Assembly: GCF_030116705.1 (NCBI RefSeq)
Contig: NZ_JAOTIK010000002.1
Span: 806,001-870,000, forward strand
DNA length: 64,000 nucleotides
Direction: 5' to 3'
From: Streptomyces sp. ML-6
Lineage (GTDB): Bacteria; Actinomycetota; Actinomycetes; Streptomycetales; Streptomycetaceae
Both the position numbers and the translations under genes were made by a program. Positions 9,640-33,031 of this stretch are shown piece by piece. The notes beneath the pieces were generated by a model that was not told the DNA's origin, searched no databases, and was given only the letters and a program-made list of their open reading frames with translations. How positions within the stretch are numbered: position 1 is the first letter of the stretch; each line of letters opens with the position of its first letter.

Positions 9640-9653
9640 GCTGTCCCGGCATA

Positions 9654-12684: not shown

Positions 12685-12694
12685 CACCGTGGGG

Positions 12695-13600: not shown

Positions 13601-13610
13601 CCGGCTCTAC

Positions 13611-13725: not shown

Positions 13726-13853
13726 GCCGATGGCCGGAGATCCCGGCCCATCGCCGTGTCAGCGCCGTATCAGGTCCGTATGGGCGGGCCTCGCATACTC
13801 GTTCCGTGCTCGCAGAGAGGGGAGGGAGGGGGGGTGCGCGCCCCGAACACATC

Positions 13854-16016
13854 ATGACCGCCAACCATTTCTCACCGATGTCGCAGGTCTCTCCGGATGG
13901 ACCGATGACCGTGGTCGTCGACCCCGGGGAACCCCCCTATGACGCTCCGCCGTTCCTGGAACTCCGCGGCCCCCTGGACACCCGGAGCCTGGAGGCCGCA
14001 CTGGACCGGCTCGCCGCCCGCCGGCCGGACGGCCCGGCCTGGCAGCACCGGCTCCGGCCCCACGGCCCCGGCCTGCACACCCTGAGACTCACCATGGGCG
14101 CCCCCGGGGAGTTCCCGGCCGGACTGCTGGCCGACCTGCTCACGGACCCGCCCCTGACGGGCCGCTGCGTGCGCACGGCCGGGGCGAGCCCGCTCCAGCT
14201 CGAACTGCTCGCCGACGCCGACGCGCACCCGGGCACCGGGCGCCACGTCGAGCAGCTCGCCTGGGACTGGCACGGCCCGCTCGACCCGGAACGCTTCACC
14301 GCCGCCTGGCAGTCCCTCTTCGACCGGGAGAGCGTGCTGCGCTCCGCCTTCGACGACGGCCCCGAACCACGGATCGTGGTGCACGACCGGGTCCGGGCCG
14401 AAGTGGTACGGCTGCCGCACAGCACCGAGGACTGGGCGTCGGTGGTCGAGTACGACCGGCGACGCGGCCTCGACCCGCGCCGCCCCGGACCGCTGCGCGT
14501 GACCGTGCTGGGCGGCGGCCCCGTCGTGTCGGTCACCGCCCCGCCCACCCGGGTGCTGCTCACCTACCACCACGCGCTGCTCGACGACTGGAGCGCACGC
14601 CTGCTGCTGCGGGAGTTCTACCGCGCCTACCTGGCCGACGGCGTCCTGCCCGGCGGGGAACGCCGCCCCGACATGGGCGACTACACGCAGTGGCTCGCCC
14701 GCCAGGACATCGGCCCCGCACGGGAGTTCTGGACGGACGCCGCACCCCCGCCCGATGCCGCGCACTCCCCGCTCCCCGCCACCTCCGACACACCTGCTTC
14801 CGACTTTCACGGCACGGGCACCGGAACCGGGCGCACCCGGCTGCGCCTGACCGCCGCCCGGACGGCACGGCTCGGCGCCTGGGCGGCCGGTTGGGGCAGT
14901 ACCGAGAGCGGCGCGCTCCAGGCCGTGTGGGCGCTGCTGCTGTACCGGGCCACCGGTTCGGCCGACCCGCGGCCGGTCCGCTTCAGCGTGACCGTGTCCG
15001 GCCGCGGAATCCCGTTCGACTCGGTGGAACGCCTGCCGGGCTCGCTGCGCAACCCGCTGCCGATGTCCGTCGTCGTCGACCCGGGGGCGAGCGTGCCCGG
15101 GCTGCTCGCCCTGCTGCGCGACCGGGCGCTGGACATGGCGGCGTACGAGTGGGCCTCGGCGGGCCGCATCCGCGGCTGGACCGGAACCCCGGACCGGCCG
15201 ACCGGACCGGAGGGCAGCCTCGTCGCCTTCGACGGCCGGCCCCGGAACACGGACGACCTCGCCCCCGAACTCGCCGCCCGGGGAATCCGGGTGGGCCCCC
15301 CGGAGACGCTCGGCGCCCGCACGGCCTTCCCTCTCACGCTCGCCGCCCACCACGACGAAGCGGGCGGACTCGTCATGACCGTCACCTACGACCGCGACCG
15401 ACTGGCCGGTATCGGCGGCGTCCTGGCACACGCCGCGTATCTGCTGGACGAACTCCCCAGGGTCGCAGGAGAGTTCACCACCGTCGCCGAGGTGCTGGAA
15501 CTCCTGTCCGCAGCGGACGCGGACGCGAGCACGGACACGGGGGCGGAAGCCCGCCCGGCCACGGACGACGGAGCCGAATCCGAAGCGGGGGACAGCACCG
15601 AAGTCGGGCCCGGGACCGGGGCCGGCACCGGCCCCGGTGGGGCGTCCGCGATCATCACCCTGCGGCCGTCCCGGAAACCCGGCGCCGGTACCGTCTGCCT
15701 CGTCCCGGCACACAGCACCCCGCGCTTCCGTCACGACCTGCTCGCCCGCTCCTACCGGGGCCCCGAGGCCCTCGTGCTGCTGGGCACCCCGCCGGACGAC
15801 GCGCGGGCCGGGTACGACGCGCTGCGACCGCTGATCGACGCGGGCGGCCCCCTGGTGCTCGGCGGCTTCACCGGCTGCGGAGTCGCCGCGTACGGGATCA
15901 CCCGGCTGATCGCGGAGAACGGCGGCCGACCGCCGCTGATCGTGCTCACCGGCACCGCGACCTCCGCCGCAGACCTCGCCCGACTGCTCGAATCCGCCGC
16001 CGAACGCGCCGGATGA
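13854..16016 (+). CDS. Free-standing condensation domain fused to a truncated thioesterase
   Basis: NRPS-type condensation protein of 720 residues. The active-site motif is HHALLDD (canonical HHxxxDG) near residue 242, with both His and the first Asp kept. There is no adenylation or carrier domain. After an acidic Thr/Gly/Glu-rich linker (about 560-610) the last 110 residues align with the first half of a type I thioesterase up to the nucleophile elbow, where the usual GGWSFGG is replaced by GGFTGCG, so Ser becomes Thr. The later catalytic Asp and His are missing, so this part is likely non-catalytic. It may form an amide or ester to release the polyketide. The start is uncertain: ATG 13854 has no clear Shine-Dalgarno, and GTG 13806 or ATG 13878 are possible. 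Confidence 0.8.
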
Positions 16017-16125
16017 CGAATCCGCCGGACGCCCGCCGGACGGTCCCCGGGCCGTCCGGCCCGCCGACGACCGACCGTTCGACGGACCTCGAACCGTTCA
16101 ACGGACCTCACACCTCTGGAGAGCC

Positions 16126-17349
16126 ATGTCCCGCCGCCTGTTCACCTCGGAGTCCGTCACCGAGGGCCACCCCGACAAGATCGCCGACCAGATCAGCGAC
16201 ACCATCCTCGACGCACTGCTCCGTGAGGACCCCCGGTCCCGCGTCGCCGTCGAGACGCTGATCACCACCGGCCAGGTGCACGTCGCGGGCGAGGTCACGA
16301 CCAAGGCCTACGCCGACATCCCGGCCCTCGTGCGCGACAAGGTCCTCGAAATCGGCTACGACTCCTCCGGCAAGGGCTTCGACGGTGCCTCCTGCGGCGT
16401 CTCGGTGTCCATCGGCGCGCAGTCGCCCGACATCGCGCAGGGCGTCGACACCGCCTACGAGCAGCGCCTCCAGGGCTCCGCCGCAGGTGGGGAGGGGGAC
16501 GAGCTCGACCAGCAGGGCGCCGGTGACCAAGGGCTGATGTTCGGCTACGCCACGGACGAGACCCCGTCCCTGATGCCCCTGCCGATCGACCTGGCCCACC
16601 GCCTCTCGCGCCGACTCTCCGAGGTCCGCAAGAACGGGACCGTCCCGTACCTGCGCCCCGACGGCAAGACCCAGGTCACCATCGAGTACGTGGGCAGCCG
16701 CCCCGTCCGTCTCGACACCGTCGTCATCTCCTCGCAGCACGCCTCCGACATCGACCTCGACACCCTGCTGACCCCGGACGTCCGCCGGCACGTCGTCGAG
16801 CACGTGCTGTCCGAACTCGCCGACAGCGGCATCAAGCTGGAGACCGAGGGATATCGGCTGCTGGTGAACCCGACCGGGCGTTTCGAGATCGGCGGCCCGA
16901 TGGGCGACGCCGGTCTGACCGGCCGGAAGATCATCATCGACACCTACGGCGGCATGGCCCGGCACGGCGGCGGCGCCTTCTCCGGCAAGGACCCGTCGAA
17001 GGTGGACCGCTCGGCGGCGTACGCGATGCGCTGGGTCGCCAAGAACGTCGTCGCGGCCGGCCTCGCCGCCCGCTGCGAGGTCCAGGTCGCGTACGCGATC
17101 GGCAAGGCCGAGCCGGTCGGCCTGTTCGTCGAGACCTTCGGCACCGGCACCGTGGCCCAGGACCGCATCGAGCACGCCATCGGCGAGGTCTTCGACCTGC
17201 GCCCGGCCGCGATCATCCGCGACCTCGACCTGCTGCGCCCGATCTACTCCCCGACCGCGGCGTACGGCCACTTCGGCCGCGAGCTGCCCGACTTCACCTG
17301 GGAGCGCACCGACCGCGCCCAGCGGCTGAAGGCCGCGGCCGGTCTCTGA
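16126..17349 (+). CDS. metK: S-adenosylmethionine synthetase
   Basis: Makes S-adenosylmethionine from methionine and ATP. It has 407 residues, the full family length, with signatures [12 protein letters not shown] near the N-terminus and [19 protein letters not shown] near residue 285. It has a weak site (CTGGAG) before the ATG. It lies inside the cluster next to metF, so it is probably a dedicated second copy raising methyl supply for the cluster's methyltransferases. It is co-directional with the condensation gene 110 bases upstream. Confidence 0.97.
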
Positions 17350-17370
17350 CCGGTCGGGCCACTCCGTCCC

Positions 17371-17496
17371 CCGCATCCCAGGGAGTACGTCCATGGCCTC
17401 GTTGCCGACCCCTTCTGCCCCGAACAGTCCACCGACGCCATCGTCATCCACCACCCCGAAGCGAGATACTTCAACGCGGGAGGCCGTAGGCCATGA
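17371..17496 (+). pseudogene. metH: Probable 3' remnant of cobalamin-dependent methionine synthase
   Basis: Between metK and metF the frame read from metK's stop has no start codon, but encodes a peptide with PEQSTDAIVIHHPEARYFNA just before its stop. This closely matches the conserved end of the activation domain of actinobacterial MetH (HPEQST..., HHPEAKYFN). Its TGA (17494-17496) overlaps the metF ATG as ATGA, as expected if a full metH once preceded metF. The identification rests on remembered family sequence, so it is tentative. Confidence 0.6.
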
Positions 17497-18452
17497 CCAC
17501 ACTGCCCGAACTCCTGGCGAGCGGTACGCCCTCGTTCTCCTTCGAGTTCTTCCCGCCGAGGACGGCGGCCGGCACCCGCACGCTGTGGGAGGCGATCCGC
17601 CGGATCGAGGCCCTGGCCCCGACGTTCGTCTCGGTCACCTACGGTGCGGGCGGCACGTCCCGGGACCGCACCGTCGAGGTCACCAAGCGCATCGCCGCCG
17701 AGACCACACTGCGGCCGGTCGCGCACCTGACGGCGGTCGGCCACTCCACCGCCGAACTGCGCCACATCATCGGCCAGTACGCGGACGCGGGCGTGCGCGA
17801 CGTGCTCGCCCTGCGCGGCGACCCGCCGGGCGACGACCCCTCCGCCCCCTGGACCCCGCATCCGGAGGGCTTCACCCACGCCCATGAACTCGTCTCGCTG
17901 GTACGCCGGTCGGGCGACTTCAGCGTGGGTGTGGCGGCCTTCCCCGAACGGCACCCGCGCTCGGCGGACTGGGCGGACGACATCCGGCACTTCCTCGCCA
18001 AGTGCCGCGCGGGCGCCGACTACGCCATCACCCAGATGTTCTTCCGGGTCGAGGACTACCTGCGCCTGCGCGACCGGGTCGCCGCCGCGGGCTGCGACAC
18101 ACCGATCATTCCCGAGATCATGCCGGCGACCGACGTACGCCAGATCGGCCGCTTCGCCGAACTCAGCAACGCCACCTTCCCCGACGACCTCGCCCGGCGC
18201 CTGGACGCCGCCCGCGACAATCCGGCCGACGGCCACCGCATCGGTGTCGAGTACGCCACCGCCATGGCCGACCGCCTGCTCGCCGAAGGCGCTCCAGGGC
18301 TGCACTACATCACGCTCAACCGGTCCACCGCGACGCTGGAGATCCACCGGAACCTCCAGCACACCCACCTTGCCCGTACTGCCCGGAGTACTCAGGGCAC
18401 TCAGGGAATTCGGGGCACAAGGAGTGCACAGGCCCTCGCAGCCGCCCGCTGA
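17493..18452 (+). CDS. metF: Methylenetetrahydrofolate reductase
   Basis: Flavoprotein that reduces 5,10-methylene-THF to 5-methyl-THF, the methyl donor for methionine regeneration. It has 319 residues. Family motifs [27 protein letters not shown] and ALRGDPPG are all present. GGGAGG at 17478-17483 lies 9 bases before the ATG, which overlaps the stop of the metH-like remnant. With metK it forms a methyl-cycle pair serving the cluster. The final 25 residues (Thr/Gly/Arg-rich) go beyond the usual end of the family. A strong terminator follows. Confidence 0.95.
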
Positions 18453-20317: not shown

Positions 20318-21991
20318 TTACGCGGCCAGTGCCGCCCGGTCCAGCTTGCCGTTGGGCGTCACCGGCAGCCGGTCCAGATGGCACACCCGCTGGGGCACCA
20401 TGTGCGCGGGCAGGCGCGCGGCCAGTGCGGACCGTACCGCGCTCGCCGGGACGGCCGTCCGCTCCGCCACGATGTACGCGGTGAGCGACTGGTCACCGTG
20501 CCGGGTCTCCGTCACCAGACAGGCCGCGCCCGACACCCCCGGCACCGCGCGCAGCGCCGACTCGACCTCGCCCAGCTCGATGCGGAAACCGCGCAGCTTC
20601 ACCTGGCCGTCCTGCCGGCCCGCGTAGTGCAGCAGCCCGTCCTCGTCGGCCACGGCCCAGTCCCCGCTGCGGTAGTGGCGGCCGGAACCGTCGCCCGCGT
20701 CGACGAAGCGCTGCTCCGTCAACTCCGGCCTTCCCAGGTACCCGTGGGCGACCCCGCTGCCGGCGACCCACATCTCGCCGCGCCCGCCCGGCGGCACGGG
20801 CCGGCCTTCGGCGTCGCGCAACGCGACCGACAGATGCGGCAGTGGACGCCCGATCGGGGTGCGGCCGGGCCCCGCGCCCGCCAGGACGGCCGGGGTGAGC
20901 GGACAGTACGTGACATGGACCGTGGTCTCGGTGATCCCGTACATGTTGACCAGCTCGGCGTCCGGGGCGATCCCGGAGTCCCACCAGCGCCGCACGTCGG
21001 CGGGCACCAGCGCCTCCCCGCCGAGGACGACCCGGCGCAGCGCGGGCAGCCGGGCCTTCTCGGCGGCGGCCTCGACGACCAGGTTGCCGAAGGCGGAGGG
21101 CACCTGGTTGAGGACGGTGACGCCCCGGTCCGCGAGCAGCCGGGCGAACTCGGCGGGCTCCGTGGCGGTCTCGCGGTCGACGACGACGGCGTGCCCGCCG
21201 TACAGCAGCGGACCCCACAGCTCCCAGACGCTGAAGTCGAAACTCGGCGAGTGGAACAGCGTCCACACATCGTCCGGGCCCGTGCCCAGCAGCGGCACGG
21301 CCGCGTCCAGCAGGGCCAGCACCTGGCCGTGCCCGACCACGCAGCCCTTGGGGGCGCCGGTGGAGCCGGAGGTGTGGATGACGTACGCGGTGTCCTCGGG
21401 CACCCTCGGCCCGGCCGGCGCCGTGCCCGTGCCCGCACCGGCCACGGCACGGGTCGCCAGGACGAACGGGCCGGCCTTGGCGATCGGCGTCTCGTCCGCC
21501 AGCAGACCGCTGTCGGACAGGACCATTTCGACCGCGCCGTCCTCCAGCAGGTACTCCTGCCGGGCCACCGGATAACCGGGGTCGACGGGCAGGTACGCGG
21601 CACCGGAACGCAGGATGCCGAGGACCGCCCCCGGGGCGTACCGGGTGCGGGCGGCGCGCAGCGCGACCAGCCGGCCGGGCCCGGTGCGGCCCTCCAGGCG
21701 CTGCGCGACGGCGTCGGCGAGCCACTCCAGTTCGAGGTAGCTCAGCTCGCCCTCGGCGTCGGACACGGCGGTGCGGGCGGCATGGCGGGCGGCCACCGCG
21801 GTGAACCGGGTGTCGAGGCGATCGGCGGACTCCGCCGGGCGGGCCGGGGGCCGGCCGATGGCGTCCAGCAGGGTGCCGACGTCATCGGCGAGCCGGTCCA
21901 GTCCGGGCAGCCCGCCCGGACCGTTCTCGGGGCGGGTGTTCATGGGACCTCCCAGGTGGGCGGGGGAGACGGGCGGTGGGGTGTCGCTCAT
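20318..21991 (-). CDS. Free-standing NRPS adenylation protein, predicted L-threonine-specific
   Basis: Activates an amino acid as its aminoacyl-adenylate for loading on a separate carrier protein. It has 557 residues and no carrier domain. Core motifs: HTSGSTGAPKG (A3), FDFSVWELW (A4), NMYGITETT (A5), YRSGD (A7), and NGKLDR (A10 Lys). Reading the ten specificity positions by alignment to GrsA gives D-F-W-N-V-G-M-V-H-K, the standard threonine code. Its ATG overlaps the KamE stop as ATGA, so it is translationally coupled to the lysine-aminomutase genes. It is the last gene of the minus-strand operon. Likely carrier partner: the free PCP at 39978-40274. Confidence 0.93.
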   Translation of the reverse strand: MSDTPPPVSPAHLGGPMNTRPENGPGGLPGLDRLADDVGTLLDAIGRPPARPAESADRLDTRFTAVAARHAARTAVSDAEGELSYLELEWLADAVAQRLEGRTGPGRLVALRAARTRYAPGAVLGILRSGAAYLPVDPGYPVARQEYLLEDGAVEMVLSDSGLLADETPIAKAGPFVLATRAVAGAGTGTAPAGPRVPEDTAYVIHTSGSTGAPKGCVVGHGQVLALLDAAVPLLGTGPDDVWTLFHSPSFDFSVWELWGPLLYGGHAVVVDRETATEPAEFARLLADRGVTVLNQVPSAFGNLVVEAAAEKARLPALRRVVLGGEALVPADVRRWWDSGIAPDAELVNMYGITETTVHVTYCPLTPAVLAGAGPGRTPIGRPLPHLSVALRDAEGRPVPPGGRGEMWVAGSGVAHGYLGRPELTEQRFVDAGDGSGRHYRSGDWAVADEDGLLHYAGRQDGQVKLRGFRIELGEVESALRAVPGVSGAACLVTETRHGDQSLTAYIVAERTAVPASAVRSALAARLPAHMVPQRVCHLDRLPVTPNGKLDRAALAA

Positions 21992-22917
21992 CCGACGTCC
22001 TCCAGAACGGCTGCGGACACGGCGGGGGCGGCGGCGGGCACCAGGGCGTGCACCAGATAGCTGGCGACGTCGCCCGGCGTGGTGCCGCGGCCGAAGATCC
22101 GGTCCGCGCCCAGCGTCGCCGCGGCGGCCGGGTCGAAGCGGGGGCCGCCCACCACGAGCAGGGGACGTTCGTGTTCGGCGAACGAGGCCCGCAGTTCGGC
22201 GCTCAGCTCCCGGACGTTGGTGAGATGGGCGTCCCGCTGGGTGACGGCCTGCGAGACCAGGACGGCGTCGGCGCGCTCGGACCCGGCCCGGCGCACCAGC
22301 TCCCCGACCGGGACCTGCGCGCCCAGGTTCAGGACCCGCATCTGCCGGTAGTACTCCAGCCCCTTCTCGCCGGCGAAACCCTTGATGTTGAGGATCGCGT
22401 CGATCCCCACGGTGTGCGCGTCCGTGCCGATGCAGGCGCCCAGCACCACGAGTCTGCGGCCGAGCCGGTCCCGTACCGCCGCGTCGGCCTCCTTGGCGGA
22501 CAGCAGCGGGTAGTCGCGCTCGGCCACCACGACCCGGTCGAGGTCCACGGTGTGGGCGACGGCCCCGTACACCACGAAGAAGCTGAAGTCGGTGCCGCCG
22601 ACCGCCTTGCTGTGCACGACCAGGGGGCGCTCCATGCCCATGCGACGGGCCAGTTGGAGCGCGGCGCCCTCGGCACGCGGGCCGTGCGGCAGGGGCAGGG
22701 TGAAGGACAGCTGCACCATGCCGTCGTCGGTGGTGTCGCCGTAGGGGCGGATGATGGTGTCGGCCTTCGGAGTGCTCTCCGGACCGCCCCCCGGGCCGTT
22801 CGAGGGGCCGCCGTACAGGCTCTCGTACAGGTCCTCGGGCAGGTTTTTGGGCAGGTTTTTGGGCGGGCCGGGCCGGTTCTCGGGGCGGGGCCCGGGGGCC
22901 CACGGGTCGGTGTTCAT
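21988..22917 (-). CDS. kamE: Lysine 5,6-aminomutase, cobalamin-binding beta subunit
   Basis: Small subunit of the adenosylcobalamin- and PLP-dependent enzyme that moves the terminal amino group of lysine or beta-lysine to carbon 5. It has 309 residues. The B12 base-off motif is clear: GTDAHTVG (DxHxxG), then a Rossmann-type B12 domain with LLVVGGPRFD and GADRIFGRGTTPGD. The stretch SKAVGGTDFSFF near residue 95 should hold the Lys that forms the PLP Schiff base. Start and stop overlap its neighbours by four bases, giving equal expression with KamD. The Pro-rich first 35 residues are an unusual extension. Confidence 0.93.
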   Translation of the reverse strand: MNTDPWAPGPRPENRPGPPKNLPKNLPEDLYESLYGGPSNGPGGGPESTPKADTIIRPYGDTTDDGMVQLSFTLPLPHGPRAEGAALQLARRMGMERPLVVHSKAVGGTDFSFFVVYGAVAHTVDLDRVVVAERDYPLLSAKEADAAVRDRLGRRLVVLGACIGTDAHTVGIDAILNIKGFAGEKGLEYYRQMRVLNLGAQVPVGELVRRAGSERADAVLVSQAVTQRDAHLTNVRELSAELRASFAEHERPLLVVGGPRFDPAAAATLGADRIFGRGTTPGDVASYLVHALVPAAAPAVSAAVLEDVG

Positions 22918-24497
22918 CGGGCCTCGGTTCCTTCCAGGAGGTCGGTGGCCGGATTGCGGTAGCCGGGTGCGCGGCGCACGACGCCGTCCGCGCCCCGCCC
23001 GCCGTCCGCGGGGCGCCGCATCCCGCCGAACGTGCCGTGCCCGATGGCGTCCAGCAGGCCCCGGTCGCAGATCTGCTCCAGCAGACCGACCGCCTCGTCG
23101 AGCACGTGATGGGCGCGCCGGGCGATGAAACCGCCGGGGGCGGGGCGGAAGTCCTCGGCCAGCGAACCCGCCGAGCCCAGGACGTAACGGACGTTCTGCA
23201 ACGCCAGGTCGCGGTCGGACAGGAACGGGGTGACGACGGCCTCGGTCATCATCCCGACCAGCAGGATGCTCTGCCCGGTCAGCGCCCCCGCCAGGTTGAA
23301 GAAGCCGTTGAGGAGGTAGCCGCGGAAGACGTCACCGGTCATGTGCCGGGTCGGCGGCATCCACTTCAGCGGCGCGTCGGGGAACAGCTCACGGGCCAGC
23401 ATCGCGTGCGCCAGCTCCAGCCGGAACGAGTCCGGCCGGTCCGGGTCGATCTCGAAGGCGTGCCCGAGGCCGAGCTGCCCGTCCGGCAGGCCCGCCTCCT
23501 TCGCGAAGTACTCGTTCAGCAGCTGACTGGCCGTCACCGTGTGGGCGGCGTCCACCGCGTCGGCGGTCGTCAGGTAGTTGTCCTCGCCGGTGTTGATGAG
23601 GATGCCCGCGCGGGCGTGCAACTGCCGGGAGAAACGCTGGTCGACGAAGGTGCGCACCGGGTTGATGTCGCGGAAGAGGATGCCGTACATCGAGTCGTTG
23701 AGCATCATGTCGAGGCGTTCGAGACCGGCCAGCGCCGCGATCTCCGGCATGCACAACCCGGACGCGTAGTTGGTGAGCCGTACGTAGCGCCCGAGTTCGG
23801 CGGACACCTCGTCCAGCGCGGCCCGCATCAGCCGGAAGTTCTCCCGGGTGGCGTAGGTGCCGGCGTAGCCCTCCCGGGTCGCGCCCTGCGGCACGTAGTC
23901 CAGCAGCGACTGGCCCGTGGAACGGATCACCGCGATCACGTCCGCGCCACCGCGCGCCGCCGCGCGGGCCTGCCGGATGTCCTCGTGGATGTCGCCGGTC
24001 GCCACGATCAGATAGATCCAGGGCGCGGGCGGATCGCCCAACTCGCCCACCATGCGGTCCCGTTCGGCGCGCCGGGCATCGATGGCGGCCAGGCCGCGGG
24101 CGACCGCGCGGTGCGCCCCGGCGGCGGCCTCCTTGGCGTCTGCGCCCTCGGGGAGGCGGAACGGCACGGTGCGGGCGGCGGCGTGCGCCGCCAGGTCGGT
24201 GAGGTCGCGGTACGGTCCGGTGCGCAGTGCGTCCCAGACCGGCAGGCAGACGCCGTGCTCCAGGCCGACGGAATCGGCCACGGCGTCGACGAGGCGGTTC
24301 ACCCAGGGGATGCCCTCGGGGTCGGCGCCGTCGAGCCCGGCCAGCCGCAGCGTGGCCCGTTCGACGGACACGGTGGTGTGGGAGCGGGCGAGGTCGACGA
24401 CGGGGCGTCCGGCGCGGACGGCCAGGGCTCGGGCCCGTGCGACGACGTCCGGGTCGAGGTCCAGCTTGCCGTGGACGGGCGGCGCGGGGGCGGTCAC
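22914..24497 (-). CDS. kamD: Lysine 5,6-aminomutase, alpha subunit
   Basis: Large (PLP/cobalamin barrel) subunit of lysine 5,6-aminomutase. It has 527 residues, the full length for the family, and starts KLDLDPDVVARARALA like other KamD proteins. Conserved stretches include GADVIAVIRSTGQSLLDYVPQG, RENFRLMRAALDE, VRLTNYASGLCMPEIA and MLNDSMYGILFRDIN. The substrate here is expected to be L-beta-lysine from KamA, giving 3,5-diaminohexanoate. GTG start 24497 overlaps the dehydrogenase stop (GTGA). No reactivase genes (KamB/KamC type) are visible in the window. Confidence 0.95.
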   Translation of the reverse strand: MTAPAPPVHGKLDLDPDVVARARALAVRAGRPVVDLARSHTTVSVERATLRLAGLDGADPEGIPWVNRLVDAVADSVGLEHGVCLPVWDALRTGPYRDLTDLAAHAAARTVPFRLPEGADAKEAAAGAHRAVARGLAAIDARRAERDRMVGELGDPPAPWIYLIVATGDIHEDIRQARAAARGGADVIAVIRSTGQSLLDYVPQGATREGYAGTYATRENFRLMRAALDEVSAELGRYVRLTNYASGLCMPEIAALAGLERLDMMLNDSMYGILFRDINPVRTFVDQRFSRQLHARAGILINTGEDNYLTTADAVDAAHTVTASQLLNEYFAKEAGLPDGQLGLGHAFEIDPDRPDSFRLELAHAMLARELFPDAPLKWMPPTRHMTGDVFRGYLLNGFFNLAGALTGQSILLVGMMTEAVVTPFLSDRDLALQNVRYVLGSAGSLAEDFRPAPGGFIARRAHHVLDEAVGLLEQICDRGLLDAIGHGTFGGMRRPADGGRGADGVVRRAPGYRNPATDLLEGTEAR

Positions 24498-25585
24498 CGG
24501 ACCGCTCCGTTCCCCAGGGCCCCGACGTTCGCAGTCGTACGGGCCGCCGTTCCCGGTACCCGGTCGAACAGGGCACGCACCCCCGGCTCCTCGCGCACCA
24601 GGCCGAGGGCCAGGTCGCTGTGGCCGGGCTGGTACCCGTTGCCGATCAGCATCGTGACGTCACGGCCCAGCCCCTCGGCCCCGAGCGCGGCCGTGCTGAA
24701 CGACGTCGCCATCGAGAAGAACGCCACCGTGCCGCCGTCCCGGGTGGCCAGGATCGCCGCGTGCTCGCACCCCGCCACGTCCGTGCACACCACCGTCACG
24801 TCGGCCGGGCCGCCCCGGCCGTCGAGCAGGGCGTGCAGGGCGACGGCGTCCCTCGCGTCCGCCCGCACCACCTCGTCCGCGAGACCGGCCGCGGTCAGGG
24901 CCGCCTCCTCGGCGGCGTCCGGCACCACCCCGACGACCCGGCCGGCCCCGGCGCGGCGGGCGGCGGCGAGCGACAGGGAACCCGACTTGCCACTGGCCCC
25001 CAGCACCAGCACCGAGGGAGCGGCGGCACCGCCCCGCGCGTACGAGGCGACCAGCCGCCCGGTCAGCGCCGGGGCACCGCACACGTCCAGGACGGACAGG
25101 GCCAGCTCGTCCGGCAGGTCGTCCGGCAGGACCGCGGCGACGGAGCGGCCGAACAGGATGGCGTGCCCGCGCGCCGGGACCCGTTCGCCGCGGCCGTCCC
25201 AGTCGCGCAGCCCGTCCGTGATCTCCAGCGGGGTCAGGGTCAGCGACACCAGGGTCGCCACCCGGTCGCCGGGCCGCAGCCCCAGCGGGGATTCGGGCCC
25301 CACCTCGGCGACGGTGCCGATCAGCATGCCGCCCGACCCGGTCACCGGGTTGTGCATCTTGCCCCGGTCGCGCACCAGCGCGCACGCTGCCGCCCGCACC
25401 GCGTCGCCGTCCCCGCCGTGCGCCTCGCGCAACTGCCGGAAGGACGCCGCGTCCAGGTTCAGACAGGTGACGTCGATGCGCACCTCGTCGGGGGCCGGGC
25501 GCGGATCGGTGTCGAGCCGGAGGGCGGCCTGCGGCAGCACCCCCCGCGGCTCGCGCACCCGGTGCAGCCCCAGCGCGGTGCTCAC
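24494..25585 (-). CDS. kdd: L-erythro-3,5-diaminohexanoate dehydrogenase
   Basis: NAD-dependent oxidation of 3,5-diaminohexanoate to 5-amino-3-oxohexanoate, the third step of the clostridial lysine-fermentation route. It has 363 residues with the Kdd-type pattern of a medium-chain dehydrogenase relative: CLNLDAASFRQLRE, GSGGMLIGTVAEVGP, the Rossmann segment VLVLGASGKSGSLSLAAARR, and TDVAGCEHAAIL. GTG 25585 overlaps the KamA stop and its own stop overlaps kamD. Because the next degradative enzyme (Kce) is absent from the window, the keto-amino acid is probably the end point, used as a building block. Confidence 0.88.
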   Translation of the reverse strand: MSTALGLHRVREPRGVLPQAALRLDTDPRPAPDEVRIDVTCLNLDAASFRQLREAHGGDGDAVRAAACALVRDRGKMHNPVTGSGGMLIGTVAEVGPESPLGLRPGDRVATLVSLTLTPLEITDGLRDWDGRGERVPARGHAILFGRSVAAVLPDDLPDELALSVLDVCGAPALTGRLVASYARGGAAAPSVLVLGASGKSGSLSLAAARRAGAGRVVGVVPDAAEEAALTAAGLADEVVRADARDAVALHALLDGRGGPADVTVVCTDVAGCEHAAILATRDGGTVAFFSMATSFSTAALGAEGLGRDVTMLIGNGYQPGHSDLALGLVREEPGVRALFDRVPGTAARTTANVGALGNGAVR

Positions 25586-26991
25586 GACACCCCGCCGATC
25601 AGCGCCTGCGCACTCGTCCACCACGCCCGCCCCTGCCGGGGCAGGGTGTGCACCGGGTCGTAGTAGTGGTGCACCCGGTCGAGCGCCGCCGGGTCGTCGT
25701 GGTCGACGGTCGTGCGGTAGTTCTTCGTCCAGGACGATATGCCGCGCTCCCGGTCGTAGCCGTCCGCCTGGTCCACCCACCGTTTGCCGACGTACGGCAC
25801 GTCGCAGACCAGCCGCGGGGTCGCGAACCCGGGCAGGTACCCCATGAGCGAACGCTGGAGCTCCTGGGCGCGGGCGAGCGGCAGCCGCCAGTGCTCGGCA
25901 CCGGGGACCATGTCGCAGAGGTAGAAGTAGTAGGGCATGACACCGGCGGTGTCCAGCAGGGCGAAGCACAGGTCGAGCAGCGACTCGGTCGTGCCGTTGA
26001 CCCCGTCGAGCAGCACCCCCTGGTTGCGGATGTCGCGCAGGCCCGCGTCGAGCAGGGCCCGGGACGCGCGGGCGACCAGCGGGGTGACCTGCTGGGCGGC
26101 GTTGGCGTGGGTGTGCAGTGCCAGCGACACCTCGCGGGCCCGGGCGGTCGCGGACAGCTCCGCGACCCCGTCGAGGACCTGCGGGGCGAGCCAGTGCTGC
26201 GGCAGCCCGACCAGGCCCTTGCTGGCGAGCCGGATGTCCCGCACCGAGTCGATCTCCAGGAGCCGGCCGACGAACGAGGCGAGCCGCGGCCAGGGCACAT
26301 TGGCCACGTCGCCGCCCGAGACGACGACGTCGCGCACCGTCGGGGTGGCCCGCAGGTACTCGATCATGCGGTCCAGCCGGTCGGCGGGGCGCAGCACGAA
26401 GCGGTACTTGGTGACCTGCGGCGTGGACGTCCCGACGAGGTCCATCCGGGTGCAGTGCCCGCAGTACTGCGGGCAGGTGCTCACCAGCTCGGCGAGGACC
26501 TTGGTCGGATACCGGTGGGTCAGTCCCTCCACCGCCCACATCTCCGCCTCGTGCAGCGAGTCGCGGGAGGCGAGCGGGTGGCTCGGCCACAACGGGTGCC
26601 GGTCGGAGGCGACCGGCAGCATGTAGCGGCGCACCGGGTCCTCGTACCAGGCGGCCGTCTCCACCCCGGTGTGCGGGGCGATCGTGTTCAGGACGTGCGG
26701 CGGCAGCAGGACCGGCATCGTCGCGTGGGCGCGCTGGTCGGCCTCGACGTCGTCGTAGAACGCGTCGTCGAGGCCGGGGCCCGCCACCGCGCGCAGCTCC
26801 CCGGCCCCCTTGACGCAGTGCGCGCGCTGCCACTGGGGGTCGCACCACTCCCGCTCGGTGACGTCGCGCCACCCGGGGAAGCGGCGCCAGTCCGGTTCCA
26901 CCGCCTCGTGACGGCGGTACGTGTAGGGCTGGGGGAGGGGCTCGGCGGCCATGTCCGCGGGGGCCGCCTCGGCACGGAGTGAACGGGACAC
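25582..26991 (-). CDS. kamA: Lysine 2,3-aminomutase (radical SAM/PLP)
   Basis: Converts L-lysine to L-beta-lysine with a 4Fe-4S cluster, SAM and PLP. It has 469 residues. The radical-SAM motif CPQYCGHC (CxxxCxxC) is near residue 185, followed by VVSGGDVANVPW, and SLALHTHANAAQQVTP in the barrel. The PLP lysine is probably in YVGKRWV near residue 400, a departure from the usual glycine-rich GGGGK context. GTG 26991 follows AGGAAC by 5 bases. It heads the coupled block kamA-kdd-kamD-kamE-adenylation gene. The C-terminal ending DPVHTLPRQGRAWW replaces the usual Zn-binding tail. Confidence 0.93.
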   Translation of the reverse strand: MSRSLRAEAAPADMAAEPLPQPYTYRRHEAVEPDWRRFPGWRDVTEREWCDPQWQRAHCVKGAGELRAVAGPGLDDAFYDDVEADQRAHATMPVLLPPHVLNTIAPHTGVETAAWYEDPVRRYMLPVASDRHPLWPSHPLASRDSLHEAEMWAVEGLTHRYPTKVLAELVSTCPQYCGHCTRMDLVGTSTPQVTKYRFVLRPADRLDRMIEYLRATPTVRDVVVSGGDVANVPWPRLASFVGRLLEIDSVRDIRLASKGLVGLPQHWLAPQVLDGVAELSATARAREVSLALHTHANAAQQVTPLVARASRALLDAGLRDIRNQGVLLDGVNGTTESLLDLCFALLDTAGVMPYYFYLCDMVPGAEHWRLPLARAQELQRSLMGYLPGFATPRLVCDVPYVGKRWVDQADGYDRERGISSWTKNYRTTVDHDDPAALDRVHHYYDPVHTLPRQGRAWWTSAQALIGGVS

Positions 26992-27033: not shown

Positions 27034-27723
27034 TCAGCGGGTGAGCCGGTAGACGAACAGACCTTCCGCATCGCGCTCGGGCAGCAGCTCGAAGCCCGCG
27101 CGTTCCATGACGCGCTGCGAGGCGACGTTGTCCTCGGTGGTCGTGGCGACGACCGTGTCGACCTTGTCCTGCCGCAGCGACCAGGCGGCGAGTTCGCGCA
27201 GCGCCTCGGTGGCGTAACCCCGGCCCCTGGCCTCGCCGTCGAGGTCGAAGCCGATCTCCGCGGAGCCGTCGGACGGCGGGCCGTGGAAGCCCATCGCGCC
27301 GACCACCCGGGCGTCCTGCGTGCGCAGCAGCAGGTACATGCCCCAGCCGGGCACGTGCACCCCGGCACCGGCGGCCCGCGTCAGCATCTTCGCCGCGATC
27401 CGGGTCTCCGCGCTGGGCGCGCCGCCCAGCCATTCGAGCCCGGCGGTGCCGCCCTCGGTGATCTGCCCGGCCTCCTCGGGCAGCACCTCGCGCATCCACA
27501 GCCGCGGGGTGACCAGCAGCTGCACGGCGGGCCGGGCGGCGTCCTCGGCGACGGCCCGGCGCACCGGGGCGGGCCGGCCGTCCTTCCACAGCTCGGCGAT
27601 CCGGTCCAGACAGGCCTGCTCGCCACCGGTCCAGCCGGTGGCCTGCCAGCCTTCGGGCAGACCGGTGCCGCTCGGCCACAGGGCGTACTGCTGCCGGTCG
27701 TTGACGATGACTGCGTGGGTCAC
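27034..27723 (-). CDS. MbtH-like domain fused to a GNAT acetyltransferase
   Basis: A 229-residue two-domain fusion. Residues about 5-60 follow the MbtH signature in order: VIVNDRQQYALWP, PEGWQATGW, CLDRIAELWKDGRP, keeping the three Trp positions and the RP that clasp adenylation domains. Residues about 70-229 are a GNAT N-acetyltransferase with the acetyl-CoA loop ARGRGYATEAL and the end N-x-ASQRVMERAGF typical of RimJ/RimL. MbtH proteins help NRPS adenylation domains fold and work; the partner could be either adenylation domain of the cluster. The GNAT half could acylate the amino group of a lysine-derived unit or give self-protection. GTG start with AGGAGA 5 bases upstream. Confidence 0.88.
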   Translation of the reverse strand: MTHAVIVNDRQQYALWPSGTGLPEGWQATGWTGGEQACLDRIAELWKDGRPAPVRRAVAEDAARPAVQLLVTPRLWMREVLPEEAGQITEGGTAGLEWLGGAPSAETRIAAKMLTRAAGAGVHVPGWGMYLLLRTQDARVVGAMGFHGPPSDGSAEIGFDLDGEARGRGYATEALRELAAWSLRQDKVDTVVATTTEDNVASQRVMERAGFELLPERDAEGLFVYRLTR

Positions 27724-27751: not shown

Positions 27752-28780
27752 TCAGCGGACGGGGTCGATCAGATCGAGGGCGTCCATCAACCGCACCAGG
27801 TCCTTGGCGGGGCCGAGGGACACCCGCAGATGTCCGGCGAAACCGAAACGTCCGGCATCGCGGACGAGGATGTCATGATCCTGCGCCAACAACCGTTCGG
27901 CGGCGGCCGGGTCGGAGACGGCGACGGCCACGAAGTTCGTGGCCGAAGGCAGCGATCGTCGCCCCCTGCGCGTCAACTCGCTGCGGAACCAGGCGCGTTG
28001 CAGCGCGTTCTGGCGGCGCACCTCGTCCAGGTGGTCGCGGTCCGCGAGCGCGGCGACGGCGGCGGCCTGGGCGACGGCGTTGGCACTGAACGGCATGGTG
28101 CCCTGCACCTCGTGCAGCCGGGCGACGAGTTCCGCACTGCCCACCGCGTAGCCGAGCCGCAGCGCGGCCAGCCCGTACGCCTTGGAGAACGTACGCAGCG
28201 ACAGCAACGGGGCACCGCTGCCCAGGTAGTCACGCAGCTGCGGGGTGCCGGCCGGGGCGAACTCCAGGTACGCCTCGTCGACCACCAGGGGAGTGCCGGT
28301 GACGGCCGCCCGCTCGACCAGCAGATCCATGCGGCCCCGGTCCAGGACGGCCCCGGAGGGGTTGTGCGGGTGACAGAGGTAGACGATGCCCGCGCGCTCC
28401 ATCGCGGCGGCGACGGCGTCCGCGTCCACCTGGACGCCGTCCAGCGGGATCTCCTCGCAGCCGCGCCCCACGGCGGTCAGGCAGACGCGGTAGCCGGGGA
28501 AGGTGCCGGCGGTGGTGACGCCGGGGCGGTCGCGGTCGCCGAGTGCGAGCGCGGACAGCAGCACCAGCTCGTCGCTGCCGTTGGCGACGGCGATCTGGTG
28601 CTCCCCGACGCCGAGCCGTGCGGCGACGGCCTGCGCGGGTGCGGAGCGGGCCGGGTCGGGGTAGACGGCCGTCGGGTCGAGGGCCTCCCGCGCGGCCAGC
28701 AGGGCCAGCGGGCTGGCGCCGTGGGCGTTCTCGCTCAGGTGCAGCCGGGCCGGGCCCGTACGCGGAGCGGCGATCGTCAT
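27752..28780 (-). CDS. HisC-type PLP aminotransferase
   Basis: Fold-type I aminotransferase of 342 residues close to the histidinol-phosphate aminotransferase family. Landmarks: ANGSDELVLL, LCHPHNPSGA, VVDEAYLEFA, and the PLP lysine in LRTFSKAYGLAALRLGYAVG. HisC-type enzymes also act on aromatic amino acids. Here it is coupled (ATGA overlap) to a cupin and shares the operon with an arylpyruvate-type methyltransferase, the gene set that makes beta-methyl-tryptophan in the maremycin and streptonigrin pathways. An alternative is transamination of a lysine-derived intermediate. Confidence 0.88.
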   Translation of the reverse strand: MTIAAPRTGPARLHLSENAHGASPLALLAAREALDPTAVYPDPARSAPAQAVAARLGVGEHQIAVANGSDELVLLSALALGDRDRPGVTTAGTFPGYRVCLTAVGRGCEEIPLDGVQVDADAVAAAMERAGIVYLCHPHNPSGAVLDRGRMDLLVERAAVTGTPLVVDEAYLEFAPAGTPQLRDYLGSGAPLLSLRTFSKAYGLAALRLGYAVGSAELVARLHEVQGTMPFSANAVAQAAAVAALADRDHLDEVRRQNALQRAWFRSELTRRGRRSLPSATNFVAVAVSDPAAAERLLAQDHDILVRDAGRFGFAGHLRVSLGPAKDLVRLMDALDLIDPVR

Positions 28781-29148
28781 GCGGAGTCCCCCAGCAGGAT
28801 GCCGAAGCAGTAACTGCCGGGCTCCGCCTCCAGGGTGAGGAAGCGGTGCTCCGCCCCGGCCGGGACGTGCAGCAGCGCCGGGGACGACAGCTGTTGGGTC
28901 TCGCCGTCGACGGTCACCTCGATGCGGGCGCCGCCGGGGTTGGGCGAGACGAGGAAGTAGATCTCGGCGACCTCGTGCCGGTGCGGGTCGGCCACGGGGC
29001 GGCCCACCAGATGGTCGATCGGCCCGCCCGCGAGCTGGACCGGCACCCCGCCGAACATGTCGGCGGTGAGGTAGAAGGGGGCGGGGTCGTGGTGACCGGC
29101 CACCGGCAGGAACTGCGGTACGTCGGTACGGATCTCAGCGGTTGCCAC
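28777..29148 (-). CDS. Small cupin protein (MarH-like)
   Basis: Single-domain cupin of 123 residues. Metal ligands are expected from DPHRHEVAEIYF (HxH...E) near residue 57 and HVPAGAEHRF near 98. A small cupin (MarH/StnK3) acts as an epimerase in beta-methyl-tryptophan formation together with an aminotransferase and a methyltransferase; the same three types of gene are in this operon. GTG 29148 with GGAAGGGG 7-9 bases upstream is preferred to GTG 29157. The stop overlaps the aminotransferase start. Confidence 0.78.
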   Translation of the reverse strand: MATAEIRTDVPQFLPVAGHHDPAPFYLTADMFGGVPVQLAGGPIDHLVGRPVADPHRHEVAEIYFLVSPNPGGARIEVTVDGETQQLSSPALLHVPAGAEHRFLTLEAEPGSYCFGILLGDSA

Positions 29149-29315
29149 GGAGGGCACTCCCCTTCCGGCTGCTACGGTCCTGTGGAGGGGGACCAGCGTC
29201 CTCGACCCGACTAGAGCGCCGGTGGAGCACCCGCCCGGACGACGGGGGCGCCCCGCGCCACGAGGGCACGGGCCAGGGGGAGTTCACCCCGGGGGCGCGT
29301 ACGGTCCGGGGCCGC
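29149..29315 (-). other. Intergenic gap
   Basis: 167 bases between the ATP-grasp stop and the cupin start. No gene or clear repeat is seen; it may hold an internal minus-strand promoter. Confidence 0.3.
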
Positions 29316-30665
29316 TCACCACACGGGGACGGGCCGGGCCGTCGCCCCGGTCCGCCGCCCGGCCGGGACCACGGCGGCCACGGGGACGGCGGCGGCCGTC
29401 CCGGCGGACCCGGTCACCACGCGGTGGGTCCCGTCCGGGGCCGCCACCGTGAACGACAGGACCGACAGCACCCGCTCGATCACCTGGAGCATGGTCTCGT
29501 GGTCCGCCACCGAGCCCTCCACCCAGGCGAGTTCCCCGGTCTGCACACCGGAGGCCAGCCGGGAGCCGGGCGAGTGCGGGACGACGACGTTCTCCACGCC
29601 CTCCACGGCGAGCGCCTCGCGCAGCCCGCGCACCCCCACGTAGGTGCCGCCGCCGGGCGGCGCGGGCACCGCCCGGGCGAACACCACCCGCCGGTCACCG
29701 GCCCGCACGTCCGACACGTCCTCGCCGAGCGCCACCCGCCCGGCCAGTGTGATCGCGTCGAAGTCGCCGGACAGACGCGCGAGTTGGGGCTGGAAACCAC
29801 CGAGCCTCCCGTTCACCTCGATGATCCTCGGGCCGTCGGCGGTCAGCTTCAGCTCGGTGTGGGTGATGCCCGTGGTGATGTCCAGGGCGTGCAGGGCGGC
29901 GGTCACCACCTCCAGGGCCGCCGCGCGCTCCGCCTCCGCCAGCGGCGCCGGACGCAGATGGCCGACCTCCCGGAACGGCGGCTCCAGCGGGAACTTCCCG
30001 GTCACCGCCCAGTGCGAGACCCGGCCGTCGGTCACCGCCGACTCCACGGAGATGTGGTCGCCGTACGGGCCGCAGTCCCGCCCGCGCAGATACTCCTCCA
30101 GCACCAGGGAGTTCTCCCTGCCCGGACCCGACAGGAGCCGTTCCACCAGAGCCGTGCCCCGTTCGGCGTCCACGATCAGATGGGTGCTGCGGCTGCCCTC
30201 GCCGCACAGCGGCTTGAGCACGGCCGGCAGCCCGACGGCCGCGAGCGCCCCCGCCCAGTCCTCCGGCCGGCGCACCGCGAACGAACGCACCGAGTCGGCG
30301 CCCCGCTCCCGCAGCCGGCGGCGCTGCGCGTACTTGTTCCGCAGCAGCTCCACCGTGGCCGGCGAGTGGTAGGGCAGGCCGAGCCGTTCGGCGATCTCGG
30401 CGGTGACCGAAAGCCGGGACTCGCTGAAGGTCACGATGGCGTCGGGGGAGTGCGCGGCGAGCCGCCGCGCCGATGCGTCGTGGTCCGTGGCGTCCAGCCG
30501 TACGACGGTGGTCAGTTCCTCGGCCAGCGGGGCCAGTTCGTCGGTGTGGTCGCCGGGCCACAGGGCCAGCAACGGCTCGCCCAGCGGGGACAGGCCGTCG
30601 ACGATGTCGAGGAGGGAGGCGGACCCCCGGTCCAGGACGACGGCGATGACGGGACGCTCAGACAT
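29316..30665 (-). CDS. ATP-grasp ligase
   Basis: Carboxylate-amine ligase of 449 residues that should form an amide through an acyl-phosphate. ATP-grasp features: central lid region with PAVLKPLCGEGS (ATP-binding Lys, near residue 170), LVLEEYLRG, and the Mg-binding IIEVNGRLGGF near residue 285. The N-terminal part resembles a BtrJ/DapdC-like substrate domain (VTFSESRL...AERLGLPYHS). It probably couples a free amino acid or amine (for example a lysine- or threonine-derived unit) to another acid outside the assembly line. Its partner substrates are unknown. Confidence 0.9.
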   Translation of the reverse strand: MSERPVIAVVLDRGSASLLDIVDGLSPLGEPLLALWPGDHTDELAPLAEELTTVVRLDATDHDASARRLAAHSPDAIVTFSESRLSVTAEIAERLGLPYHSPATVELLRNKYAQRRRLRERGADSVRSFAVRRPEDWAGALAAVGLPAVLKPLCGEGSRSTHLIVDAERGTALVERLLSGPGRENSLVLEEYLRGRDCGPYGDHISVESAVTDGRVSHWAVTGKFPLEPPFREVGHLRPAPLAEAERAAALEVVTAALHALDITTGITHTELKLTADGPRIIEVNGRLGGFQPQLARLSGDFDAITLAGRVALGEDVSDVRAGDRRVVFARAVPAPPGGGTYVGVRGLREALAVEGVENVVVPHSPGSRLASGVQTGELAWVEGSVADHETMLQVIERVLSVLSFTVAAPDGTHRVVTGSAGTAAAVPVAAVVPAGRRTGATARPVPVW

Positions 30666-30791: not shown

Positions 30792-31532
30792 TCAGGCGGC
30801 GGACTGGTCGGACTCCTCGGCGTAGCGCACTCCGGAGAGCACGCTCGCCACCGGAACGCCGGGAACGGCGGTCACGTTCCGGGCGGCGGCCGGGGCCGTC
30901 GCGCCGAACAGGGGCAGCGCGGCGGTGGTACCGGTCACCTCGGCCCCGATGGAGCGGTGGGCCTCCCAGCGCTCCCGGGAGAGCCGGAACCGGTCGCTGA
31001 CCACCTGCTCGCCGCGGACCGCGTTGATCTGGCTGCCGTCGCGCTCGAAGCCGAACTTGGCGCACACGCCCTGCGAGGCGTCGTTGCCGCGACGGACGAC
31101 GGAGAACGCCTGTTCGGCGCCCAGCCCGGTGAAGGCCAGCTCCAGGGCGGCCGCACGGGCATGGCCGCCGAGCCCCTCGCCCTGCCGGTCCAGCGCCAGC
31201 CACGAGGTCAGCAGCACCTCCCGGGTGACGCCGAAGTCCCGCGCGCCCAGGCTCTGCGAGCCGATCACCTCGCCGTCGGCCACGACGACCAGGTACAGCG
31301 TCCAGTCCTCGGGGGTCCAGGTGGCCATGGCGTGCCAGTGGCGCTGGAGGACGCGGCGGGCGACCTGCTCGGGGGTGCCGTCCGTCCACTGGGAGAAGAA
31401 CGGCATGAAGCCGGGGGCGTGGACGCCCTCGACGGCCCGGGTCGCGAGCGCGTCGAGATCCTCGGGGGTGGGCCAGCGCAGCTCGATGCGCGATGTGCGC
31501 ACGCCGATGCGGGCGAGCGGCCAGTTGTCCAT
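30792..31532 (-). CDS. GNAT N-acetyltransferase (RimJ/RimL type)
   Basis: Acyl-CoA-dependent N-acyltransferase of 246 residues. The GNAT core includes LTSWLALDRQGEGLGGHARAAALELAF (acetyl-CoA pyrophosphate loop) and NDASQGVCAKFGFERDG. The ATG at 31532 gives MDNWPLARIGV, a usual start for the family. About 35 extra residues follow the GNAT fold. In this operon it may acylate an amino group of the product or of an intermediate, or protect the host. It lies between the ATP-grasp and exporter genes. Confidence 0.85.
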   Translation of the reverse strand: MDNWPLARIGVRTSRIELRWPTPEDLDALATRAVEGVHAPGFMPFFSQWTDGTPEQVARRVLQRHWHAMATWTPEDWTLYLVVVADGEVIGSQSLGARDFGVTREVLLTSWLALDRQGEGLGGHARAAALELAFTGLGAEQAFSVVRRGNDASQGVCAKFGFERDGSQINAVRGEQVVSDRFRLSRERWEAHRSIGAEVTGTTAALPLFGATAPAAARNVTAVPGVPVASVLSGVRYAEESDQSAA

Positions 31533-31609
31533 GGTGTACGGCACCTCGGTACGTCGTAGGGAGTGAAGGGGGAAGAGGGGGGCGGGACGCGGTCGGGCCG
31601 GGGCGTGCG

Positions 31610-33031
31610 CTACACGGCGGCCGTGACGGGTTCGGCGGCGGCCTTCTCCGACGGTGCTTCCGGCGCGGAGGTCCCGGTTCCTTCCGGTGTGACGATCCCG
31701 GTTCCTTCCGGTGCGGCGGTCCTGGCTTCTTCCGGTGCGGCGGTTCCGGCTTCTTCCGGTGCCGCGCTCTCCTCCGGCTTCGGCAGGTCCGCACCGGGCC
31801 CCAGCGACGTGCGCAGCCGCACCGCCACGGCGACGACCGCCAGGCAGCCCGCGAGCAGCGTCACCATCAGGCCCAGCCCGTCGGCCCACGGCAGCAGGGC
31901 CCCGGCGAGCGCCGGCCCGGCCACCGAACCGGTCGAGACGGCCACCGAGAGCAGGGCGTTGACCCGGCCCCGTATGCGCTCGGTCGCCAGGTCGTTCAGC
32001 AGCGAGGTCACCACCGGGAAGACCAGCGCCTCGCCCACCGAGAGCAGCACCACCCCGGCCAGGGCCGGCCCGAGCGCGCTGCCGCCCCGTTGCAGGCCCG
32101 CGGCGAGCACCAGCGCCCAGGCCACGGTCCACACCGCGCCCGAGACGGCCAGCACCGTGCTGCGGCGGACGCGCTGGATGCGATCGGCCAGCAGCACCTG
32201 CGCGCCCACCGCGACCAGGATGTTGACCGCGAAGGCACCGGAGATGCCCTCGGGCCCGAGCGCCCCGCCCTGCGTCAGATAACCCGGCAGACCCGAACGG
32301 AACTGCCCGTACGAGACGAGCGAACAAACCGTCAGAGCAGCCAGCAGCACACCGATGTGACGTTGTGTCAGTACGTCCCGGTAGCCCACCCGGCGCTTCT
32401 CGCCGGAGTCGTCGCCGGCCCCGTCGCCCGCCTGGACGACCTTGGGCAGCAGCCAGAACAGCACCGCGCCGGCCAGCAGGAACGTCGCCCCGTCCGCCAG
32501 GTACAGCAGGGCGAACCGGACCGCGCGCGACCCCGCGTCCAGGGACGCCACCAGACCGCCGGCCAGCACGCCGAGCCCGGTCATCGCGTTGAACACCGCG
32601 TAGTCGGCGGAGTAGGCGAGTCCCCTCTCCCGGGCGGAGGGGGCCCCCGCGTACAGGAAGCGGAGCACCGTGCCCACGCCGCTGATCCCGAAGCCGTACA
32701 CCAGCGCCGCGGCCAGCGCGGTGTACACACCGGTCGCCTGCGCGTACAGGGCCGTGCCGACCCCGGCCACCGCCATCACCACGGGCACCGTGGTGCGCGG
32801 CGGGAAGCGGTCGAGCAGCGAGCCCCACAGCAGCCCGCCGGCCACGGCCGTGGCCGCCTGCACGGCCAGTGTCACGGCGGGCACCCAGGAGGGCAGCCCG
32901 CGCACGTCGCTGAGGTAGATCCACAGGAACGGCAGCACCAGGCCGCCACCGAAGGAGTTGAGCGCGTTGACGCAGAGCACGACACGGGTGCGCGGGGAGA
33001 ACTCCCGCAGCACCGCCAGGGGGTTGGCCAT
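31610..33031 (-). CDS. MFS transporter (12-TM)
   Basis: Major-facilitator efflux protein of 473 residues with about 12 hydrophobic helices. It has WGSLLDRFPPR (motif A-like) near residue 70, and DLATERIRGRVNALLSVAVSTGSVAGPALAG in the second half. Its ATG overlaps the methyltransferase stop (TGATG). The cytoplasmic tail holds an 8-residue tandem repeat (TAAPEEAR / TAAPEGTG). It is the second exporter of the cluster, besides the 14-TM one at 7613. Confidence 0.9.
   Translation of the reverse strand: MANPLAVLREFSPRTRVVLCVNALNSFGGGLVLPFLWIYLSDVRGLPSWVPAVTLAVQAATAVAGGLLWGSLLDRFPPRTTVPVVMAVAGVGTALYAQATGVYTALAAALVYGFGISGVGTVLRFLYAGAPSARERGLAYSADYAVFNAMTGLGVLAGGLVASLDAGSRAVRFALLYLADGATFLLAGAVLFWLLPKVVQAGDGAGDDSGEKRRVGYRDVLTQRHIGVLLAALTVCSLVSYGQFRSGLPGYLTQGGALGPEGISGAFAVNILVAVGAQVLLADRIQRVRRSTVLAVSGAVWTVAWALVLAAGLQRGGSALGPALAGVVLLSVGEALVFPVVTSLLNDLATERIRGRVNALLSVAVSTGSVAGPALAGALLPWADGLGLMVTLLAGCLAVVAVAVRLRTSLGPGADLPKPEESAAPEEAGTAAPEEARTAAPEGTGIVTPEGTGTSAPEAPSEKAAAEPVTAAV
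31673..31768 (-). repeat. Four 24-bp tandem coding repeats in the MFS tail
   Basis: Units at 31673, 31697, 31721 and 31745; each encodes an 8-residue Ala-Pro-Glu repeat. The copies differ by only a few bases, so the copy number may vary between strains. Confidence 0.8.

Follow-up and report, generated by a model that had tools for sequence, protein, structure and literature searches.

Lysine fermentation runs through KamA, KamDE, Kdd, Kce and Kal. The early enzymes of this pathway, as far as 5-amino-3-oxohexanoate, are also encoded in the 64,000-nucleotide stretch of Streptomyces sp. ML-6 DNA analysed here, which we refer to as the window; in contrast to the complete pathway, which has Kal and Kce, this genome is without a kal gene over the profile cut-off and without a Kce-family match. 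A second comparison is with the fungal tenuazonic acid synthetase TAS1, whose KS closes a ring and whose C-A-T-KS domain order, as described, is like that of a protein in the window. A third comparison is with the clusters for maremycin and FR900452, the latter a compound whose structure requires C-C joining. The FR900452 producer B9173 is reported to carry the minimal set amcB, F, G and H (PMC10698177), and orthologues of marA-Q have been reported in another FR-900452 producer (PMC4611700).

Identity and arrangement of the kam genes

The earlier note on this DNA described five coupled genes, and these are real: they occupy 20318-26991 on the minus strand, and reading of the ORF ends and bases places 4-base overlaps at all four junctions from kamA through kdd, kamD and kamE to an A-domain gene, overlaps that depend on the chosen start codons, which are predicted.

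25582-26991, minus strand: kamA, lysine 2,3-aminomutase (PDB 2a5h match, catalytic residues kept)
24494-25585, minus strand: kdd, 3,5-diaminohexanoate dehydrogenase (NF052381, 255 bits; PDB 7dl3)
22914-24497, minus strand: kamD, lysine 5,6-aminomutase alpha (NF052384, 686 bits; PDB 1xrs)
21988-22917, minus strand: kamE, lysine 5,6-aminomutase beta (NF052385, 329 bits; motif kept)
20318-21991, minus strand: free-standing A domain with a threonine-like code (TIGR01733, 379 bits)

The gene names given in that note also stand. The NCBIfam cut-offs were passed by kdd (255 vs 200 bits), kamD (686 vs 600) and kamE (329 vs 280); kamA falls below its own (159 vs 525 bits), but it keeps the catalytic residues and its sole PDB match at E <= 1e-3 is the lysine 2,3-aminomutase 2a5h. 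It is 60-68% identical to the kamA of other actinobacterial kam loci in matches covering more than half. In alignments with the cluster genomes and control loci defined below, the KamA Cys triad and the equivalents of R134, D293, D330 and K337, to which we ascribe catalytic roles, are present in 69 of 69 rows (9 cluster, 60 control), and the KamE DxHxxG motif with a Lys 11 residues past the His, which we take to be the B12/PLP motif, is present in 84 of 84 (9 cluster, 75 control).

The kam genes close a longer run

These five genes form the downstream end of a longer same-direction run on the minus strand, 20318-42455, the remainder of which comprises the following:

41187-42455, minus strand: TDO-like heme-oxygenase relative, 422 aa (PF03301, 52 bits)
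40293-41153, minus strand: MarE-type 2-oxindole-forming heme oxygenase, 286 aa (fold search of AlphaFold model)
39978-40274, minus strand: discrete carrier protein, 98 aa (PF00550, 62 bits)
35593-39981, minus strand: C-A-T-KS protein (domain scan, from 39879; C, T and KS motifs present; start at 39981 placed by a 4-base overlap with the carrier gene)
34277-35602, minus strand: KS-AT linker with putative AT and C remnants (domain scan; remnants read by eye; AT serine motif absent)
33031-34110, minus strand: C-methyltransferase of the beta-methyltryptophan set (best PDB relative MppJ)
31610-33034, minus strand: MFS transporter (PF07690)
30792-31541, minus strand: GNAT acetyltransferase (PF13302)
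29316-30665, minus strand: ATP-grasp ligase (PF13535, barely above cut-off)
28777-29157, minus strand: cupin of the beta-methyltryptophan set, presumably MarH-like (PDB 6j4b and 7eqk, 176 bits)
27752-28780, minus strand: HisC-like aminotransferase of the beta-methyltryptophan set (PF00155)
27034-27723, minus strand: MbtH-GNAT fusion (PF03621 and PF13302, single frame)

The earlier inventory was thus right about the five genes and incomplete beyond them, having missed the carrier gene at 39978-40274 as well as the MarE-type and beta-methyltryptophan genes. Pfam and NCBIfam scans of the 40293-41153 protein gave nothing, and its identity came from the fold search: the AlphaFold model has a pLDDT of 89, and MarE chains, 46-48% identical, take the top five places among its PDB matches. 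Its SLRG stretch is closer to the MarE motif SLGGR than to the TDO motif GTGGS, both as described in PMC11904535. The carrier protein is likely the partner of the free A domain.

Several further features of the region were recorded. The TDO-like gene adjoins the MarE-type gene; it is present in all four other kam clusters whose stretch extends that far (59-61% identity) and in locus L115 (45%), and none of the four fetched maremycin-like loci gave a match to its protein. MbtH makes up residues 2-43 of the MbtH-GNAT fusion, and L114 and L115 encode a similar protein. The linker/remnant protein at 34277-35602 is an open frame in the five kam clusters read, with only 44-47% identity to that of the window. 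On the plus strand, positions 8-18452 encode a modular PKS, an MFS protein, an acyl-CoA-dehydrogenase-like protein, LuxR, a C-domain protein, MetK and MTHFR, which probably belong to a separate cluster. We considered these genes as part of the system and set them aside, as MetK, MTHFR, LuxR and the C-domain protein have no convincing counterpart in the kam-cluster stretches, most of which extend little beyond the A domain or stop on other ground. The nearest relative, L014, retains an M23 gene beyond the A domain.

Conservation of the run

A scan of genome contigs, from which the best 80 of at least 582 relatives were taken, recovered the same cluster, as far as each stretch reaches (8-12 of the genes), in four cases, Streptomyces sk2.1, A0642, mangrovisoli and M41; the 76 without the cluster are our control kam loci. 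Among 392 sampled congener genomes, KamD occurs in five, this one included, all of which are cluster genomes. The five-gene order is present in all nine cluster genomes, and the arrangement is therefore not due to chance; looking for it in other Streptomyces clusters, as had been suggested, thus yielded eight genomes besides the window. The entire run at 20318-42455 has the same order in these eight, as far as each stretch reaches. With 16 genes of the window as queries, spanning the TDO-like through the A-domain gene but excluding the carrier gene, three of the four other congeners had all 16 and G125 had 15; the MbtH-GNAT gene was not found in the G125 kam cluster. Orthologues of the carrier gene occur in all four other kam clusters that reach this far and in all four maremycin-like loci.

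In a KamD+KamE tree of 84 rows, the nine cluster rows fall on one side of a branch with an SH-aLRT of 100, although the M41 locus (L016) and G208 are near-identical in these proteins and the nine clusters are not nine independent cases. A gene for a luciferase-like monooxygenase (15532-16659 in L006) follows the A domain in six of the nine (L006, L008, L011, L013, L015 and L016); no counterpart was found in L014, in L021 or in the window.

Degradation genes are missing from the cluster genomes

In many other actinobacteria the same enzymes are encoded together with kal, in a layout that is presumably degradative, which favours the reading that the kam genes of the window are an ordinary lysine-degradation operon merely adjoining a biosynthetic cluster. 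We compared the occurrence of kal, which encodes 3-aminobutyryl-CoA ammonia lyase, and of the Kce family. In a Kribbella control, kal is the last gene of the operon (198 bits, cut-off 160). Genome-wide, kal exceeded the cut-off in 11 of 11 control genomes, hand-picked from the 76 control loci, and in none of the nine cluster genomes, whose best matches reached only 32-36 bits. By tblastn it was found in 75 of the 76 control stretches, the single miss being a 3.1-kb contig, and was absent from all 17 cluster stretches (nine genomes). Of 364 genomes sampled evenly across the class, 71 had KamD and 64 had Kal over the cut-off; all 64 lie within the 71, and 63 have both genes within 5 kb. The seven genomes with KamD and no Kal are this one and G376, which also has the cluster, together with G432, G478, G508, G547 and G556, of which G508, G547 and G556 hold KamD as a contig-end piece, G432 has it close to the end of a contig, and the G478 genome has a completeness of 73%. 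Nine further genomes without KamD gave Kal-like matches below the cut-off, including one congener, G328, at 149 bits.

The Kce family, PF05853, which is broader than Kce alone, had no match in this genome; among the eight other cluster genomes it had none in three and scored 75-212 bits in five, while all 11 controls scored at least 302 bits. The earlier note had argued from the absence of Kce at the locus. That argument is not diagnostic, because the 76 control kam loci likewise gave no match in tblastn with two Kce-family proteins as queries. The same note held that a kce gene or full degradation pathway elsewhere, under the same regulation, would refute its proposal, and the genome-wide searches, with kal over the cut-off in 0 of 9 cluster genomes and no Kce-family match here, speak in its favour. 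In one control operon, L018, an amidohydrolase gene (PF07969; 8415-9998) lies between kdd and kamD, and a relative of it is present in 40 of the 76 control stretches.

On kal, Kce-family matches and gene order we rejected the ordinary degradation operon, which we consider very improbable given also the fixed position of the kam genes inside the run and the restriction of KamD, among the 392 congeners, to the five cluster genomes. By gene content, the system in the window is classed outside the degradation pathway, though its first steps are alike. The conserved order in nine genomes, the single KamD+KamE clade, the absence of kal over the cut-off from all nine and the lack of a Kce-family match here make it well supported that the upper lysine-fermentation route was recruited into a biosynthetic cluster, as originally proposed, and the kam genes almost certainly serve that cluster.

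Comparison with maremycin/FR900452-like clusters

In the 392-genome sample, 16 genomes have a match to the MarE-type protein at E <= 1e-3, and 11 of them reach 250 bits; of these 11 genomes, five are the kam genomes and six are without KamD. Four of the six, G363, G339, G158 and G352, combine genes for a methyltransferase, a cupin, an aminotransferase and a MarE-type enzyme with a C-A-T unit and a gene for a carrier protein. They also encode a second methyltransferase, a thioesterase, a type II KS and an AMP enzyme, and are labelled maremycin/FR900452-like by this gene content. A discrete KS with 57-59% identity to the fused KS of the window is present in three of the four, and the same three encode an A-methyltransferase enzyme, presumably of the S-methylcysteine type, together with an ADH and a SnoaL-like protein; none of these four was found in the 32 kb fetched from G339.

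The window shares with this type the beta-methyltryptophan trio (methyltransferase 50-52% identical, cupin 69-71%, aminotransferase 54-59%), the MarE-type oxygenase, the discrete carrier, a related KS and a C-A-T unit whose A-domain code, DGYLYGSFT, is identical in the window, the four other kam clusters read and all four maremycin-like loci. Two slots are swapped. Where the maremycin/FR900452 type has its A-methyltransferase enzyme, the window has the threonine-like A domain, and a search for that enzyme in the window returned only ordinary A domains, matching in part. Where that type has a cyclopentenone-type set, the window has the kam genes; within the window the type II KS of the set is matched only by the KS of the unrelated plus-strand PKS, and the AMP enzyme and thioesterase have no counterpart. 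The KS, moreover, is fused in the window whereas it is discrete in most maremycin-like clusters, and the TDO-like, ATP-grasp and MbtH-GNAT genes are extra. We class the cluster in the window as FR900452-like, with what would be a new source of precursor.

The other two of the six genomes without KamD have a different assembly line, likewise without kam genes. In these, G047 and G362, C-A-T-KS is followed by an AT with the motif GHSVG, then C, carrier and reductase domains, and G362 additionally encodes a TDO-like protein and an A-methyltransferase protein. L114 and L115 have a MarE-type gene beside C-A-T-KS-AT-C-carrier-reductase assemblies, with neither beta-methylation nor kam genes, and are another branch of the MarE-type/C-A-T-KS cluster family.

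A-domain codes, the KS and a proposed pathway

The motif-read code of the free A domain is DFWNVGMVH in all nine cluster genomes, its fourth letter being read as Q in two rows when the other query is the reference. It resembles what we take to be a threonine code, in agreement with the threonine-type assignment made earlier. Because of this code and because the gene occupies the slot of the A-methyltransferase enzyme, the free A domain probably does not activate the lysine product; a role as keto-acid activator was judged less likely on the same code.

The AT serine motif is absent from all seven post-KS proteins compared, which span both cluster types, and malonyl loading in cis is therefore unlikely. 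Kam-cluster, maremycin-like and actinobacterial C-A-T-KS sequences form one clade in the KS tree, whose topology therefore gives no specific pointer to the role we propose for this KS, and the C-A-T-KS proteins with intact AT in G047 and G362 indicate that KSs of this family are also able to act with an AT.

From the computed gene content, conservation, missing degradation genes and slot match, we infer the following chemical steps and their order. KamA, KamDE and Kdd would convert L-lysine through beta-lysine and 3,5-diaminohexanoate to 5-amino-3-oxohexanoate, where the route would end. In parallel, the methyltransferase, aminotransferase and cupin would make beta-methyltryptophan, whose indole the MarE-type enzyme would oxidise to a 2-oxindole. 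The free A domain would place threonine on the discrete carrier protein, and the C-A-T part would form a Thr-(beta-methyl-oxindolylalanyl) thioester. In a decarboxylative step that releases CO2, the AT-less KS would then couple the lysine-derived beta-keto acid to the dipeptidyl chain. Closure of the threonine amine onto the new ketone would give a piperazinone like that of FR900452, carrying an acyclic amino-ketone arm. Lysine atoms would thus be expected in the final product. The predicted core is C21H28N4O4, [M+H]+ 401.2183, not counting groups that the GNAT and ATP-grasp enzymes might add by acylation or ligation; the same atom bookkeeping reproduces the formula of FR900452, C22H25N3O3S. 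Both the kam and the cyclopentenone-type supplies would yield a beta-keto acid. We assign a probability of about one half to this model as a whole, a kam-armed maremycin/FR900452 relative in which the KS joins a lysine-derived beta-keto acid to a Thr-oxindole dipeptide.

Its parts differ in strength. That the building unit is the keto acid and not a diamine is probable. Beta-lysine is a known antibiotic building block and the run includes an ATP-grasp gene, so that beta-lysine or 3,5-diaminohexanoate could instead be attached by the ATP-grasp enzyme, with Kdd acting in tailoring; the retention of Kdd in all nine clusters, over its curated cut-off, makes this rather unlikely. For the joining itself, decarboxylation by the KS stands at even odds, and we know of no citable precedent for a KS that uses a free beta-keto acid. 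The C-A-T-KS order and a KS without AT would also suit a TAS1-like route in which the lysine keto acid acylates an amino group, through the C domain or the ATP-grasp enzyme, and the KS closes the ring to a 3-acyl tetramic acid. However, the nearest KS relatives seen are in maremycin-like clusters, FR900452 requires C-C joining, and the threonine-like A domain and carrier would be left with no clear task; we regard ring closure as unlikely. The window KS groups with actinobacterial C-A-T-KS and maremycin-like KS, and TAS1 was not named among 60 of the 151 PDB rows.

Implications

A lysine-fermentation route within a biosynthetic cluster was not found in the open-access PMC literature, and we know of no lysine route beyond beta-lysine that serves as a natural-product precursor. 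The kam cluster would thus represent a new precursor route, taking lysine past beta-lysine, and would predict a concrete, new family of Streptomyces compounds. We suggest, tentatively and at somewhat less than even odds, that the AT-less KS takes a fermentation-made beta-keto acid as its extender, that the KS of FR900452-like clusters does likewise, and that this KS family is a general joiner of peptides and beta-keto acids. If so, the extender would not come from a malonyl-carrier protein; lysine, as 5-amino-3-oxohexanoate, would become the amino-ketone arm, FR900452-like clusters would use a cyclopentenone beta-keto acid in the same way, and such acids would be interchangeable. The C-C joining of FR900452 would thereby become testable in clusters that have a common KS type and a different beta-keto acid supply.
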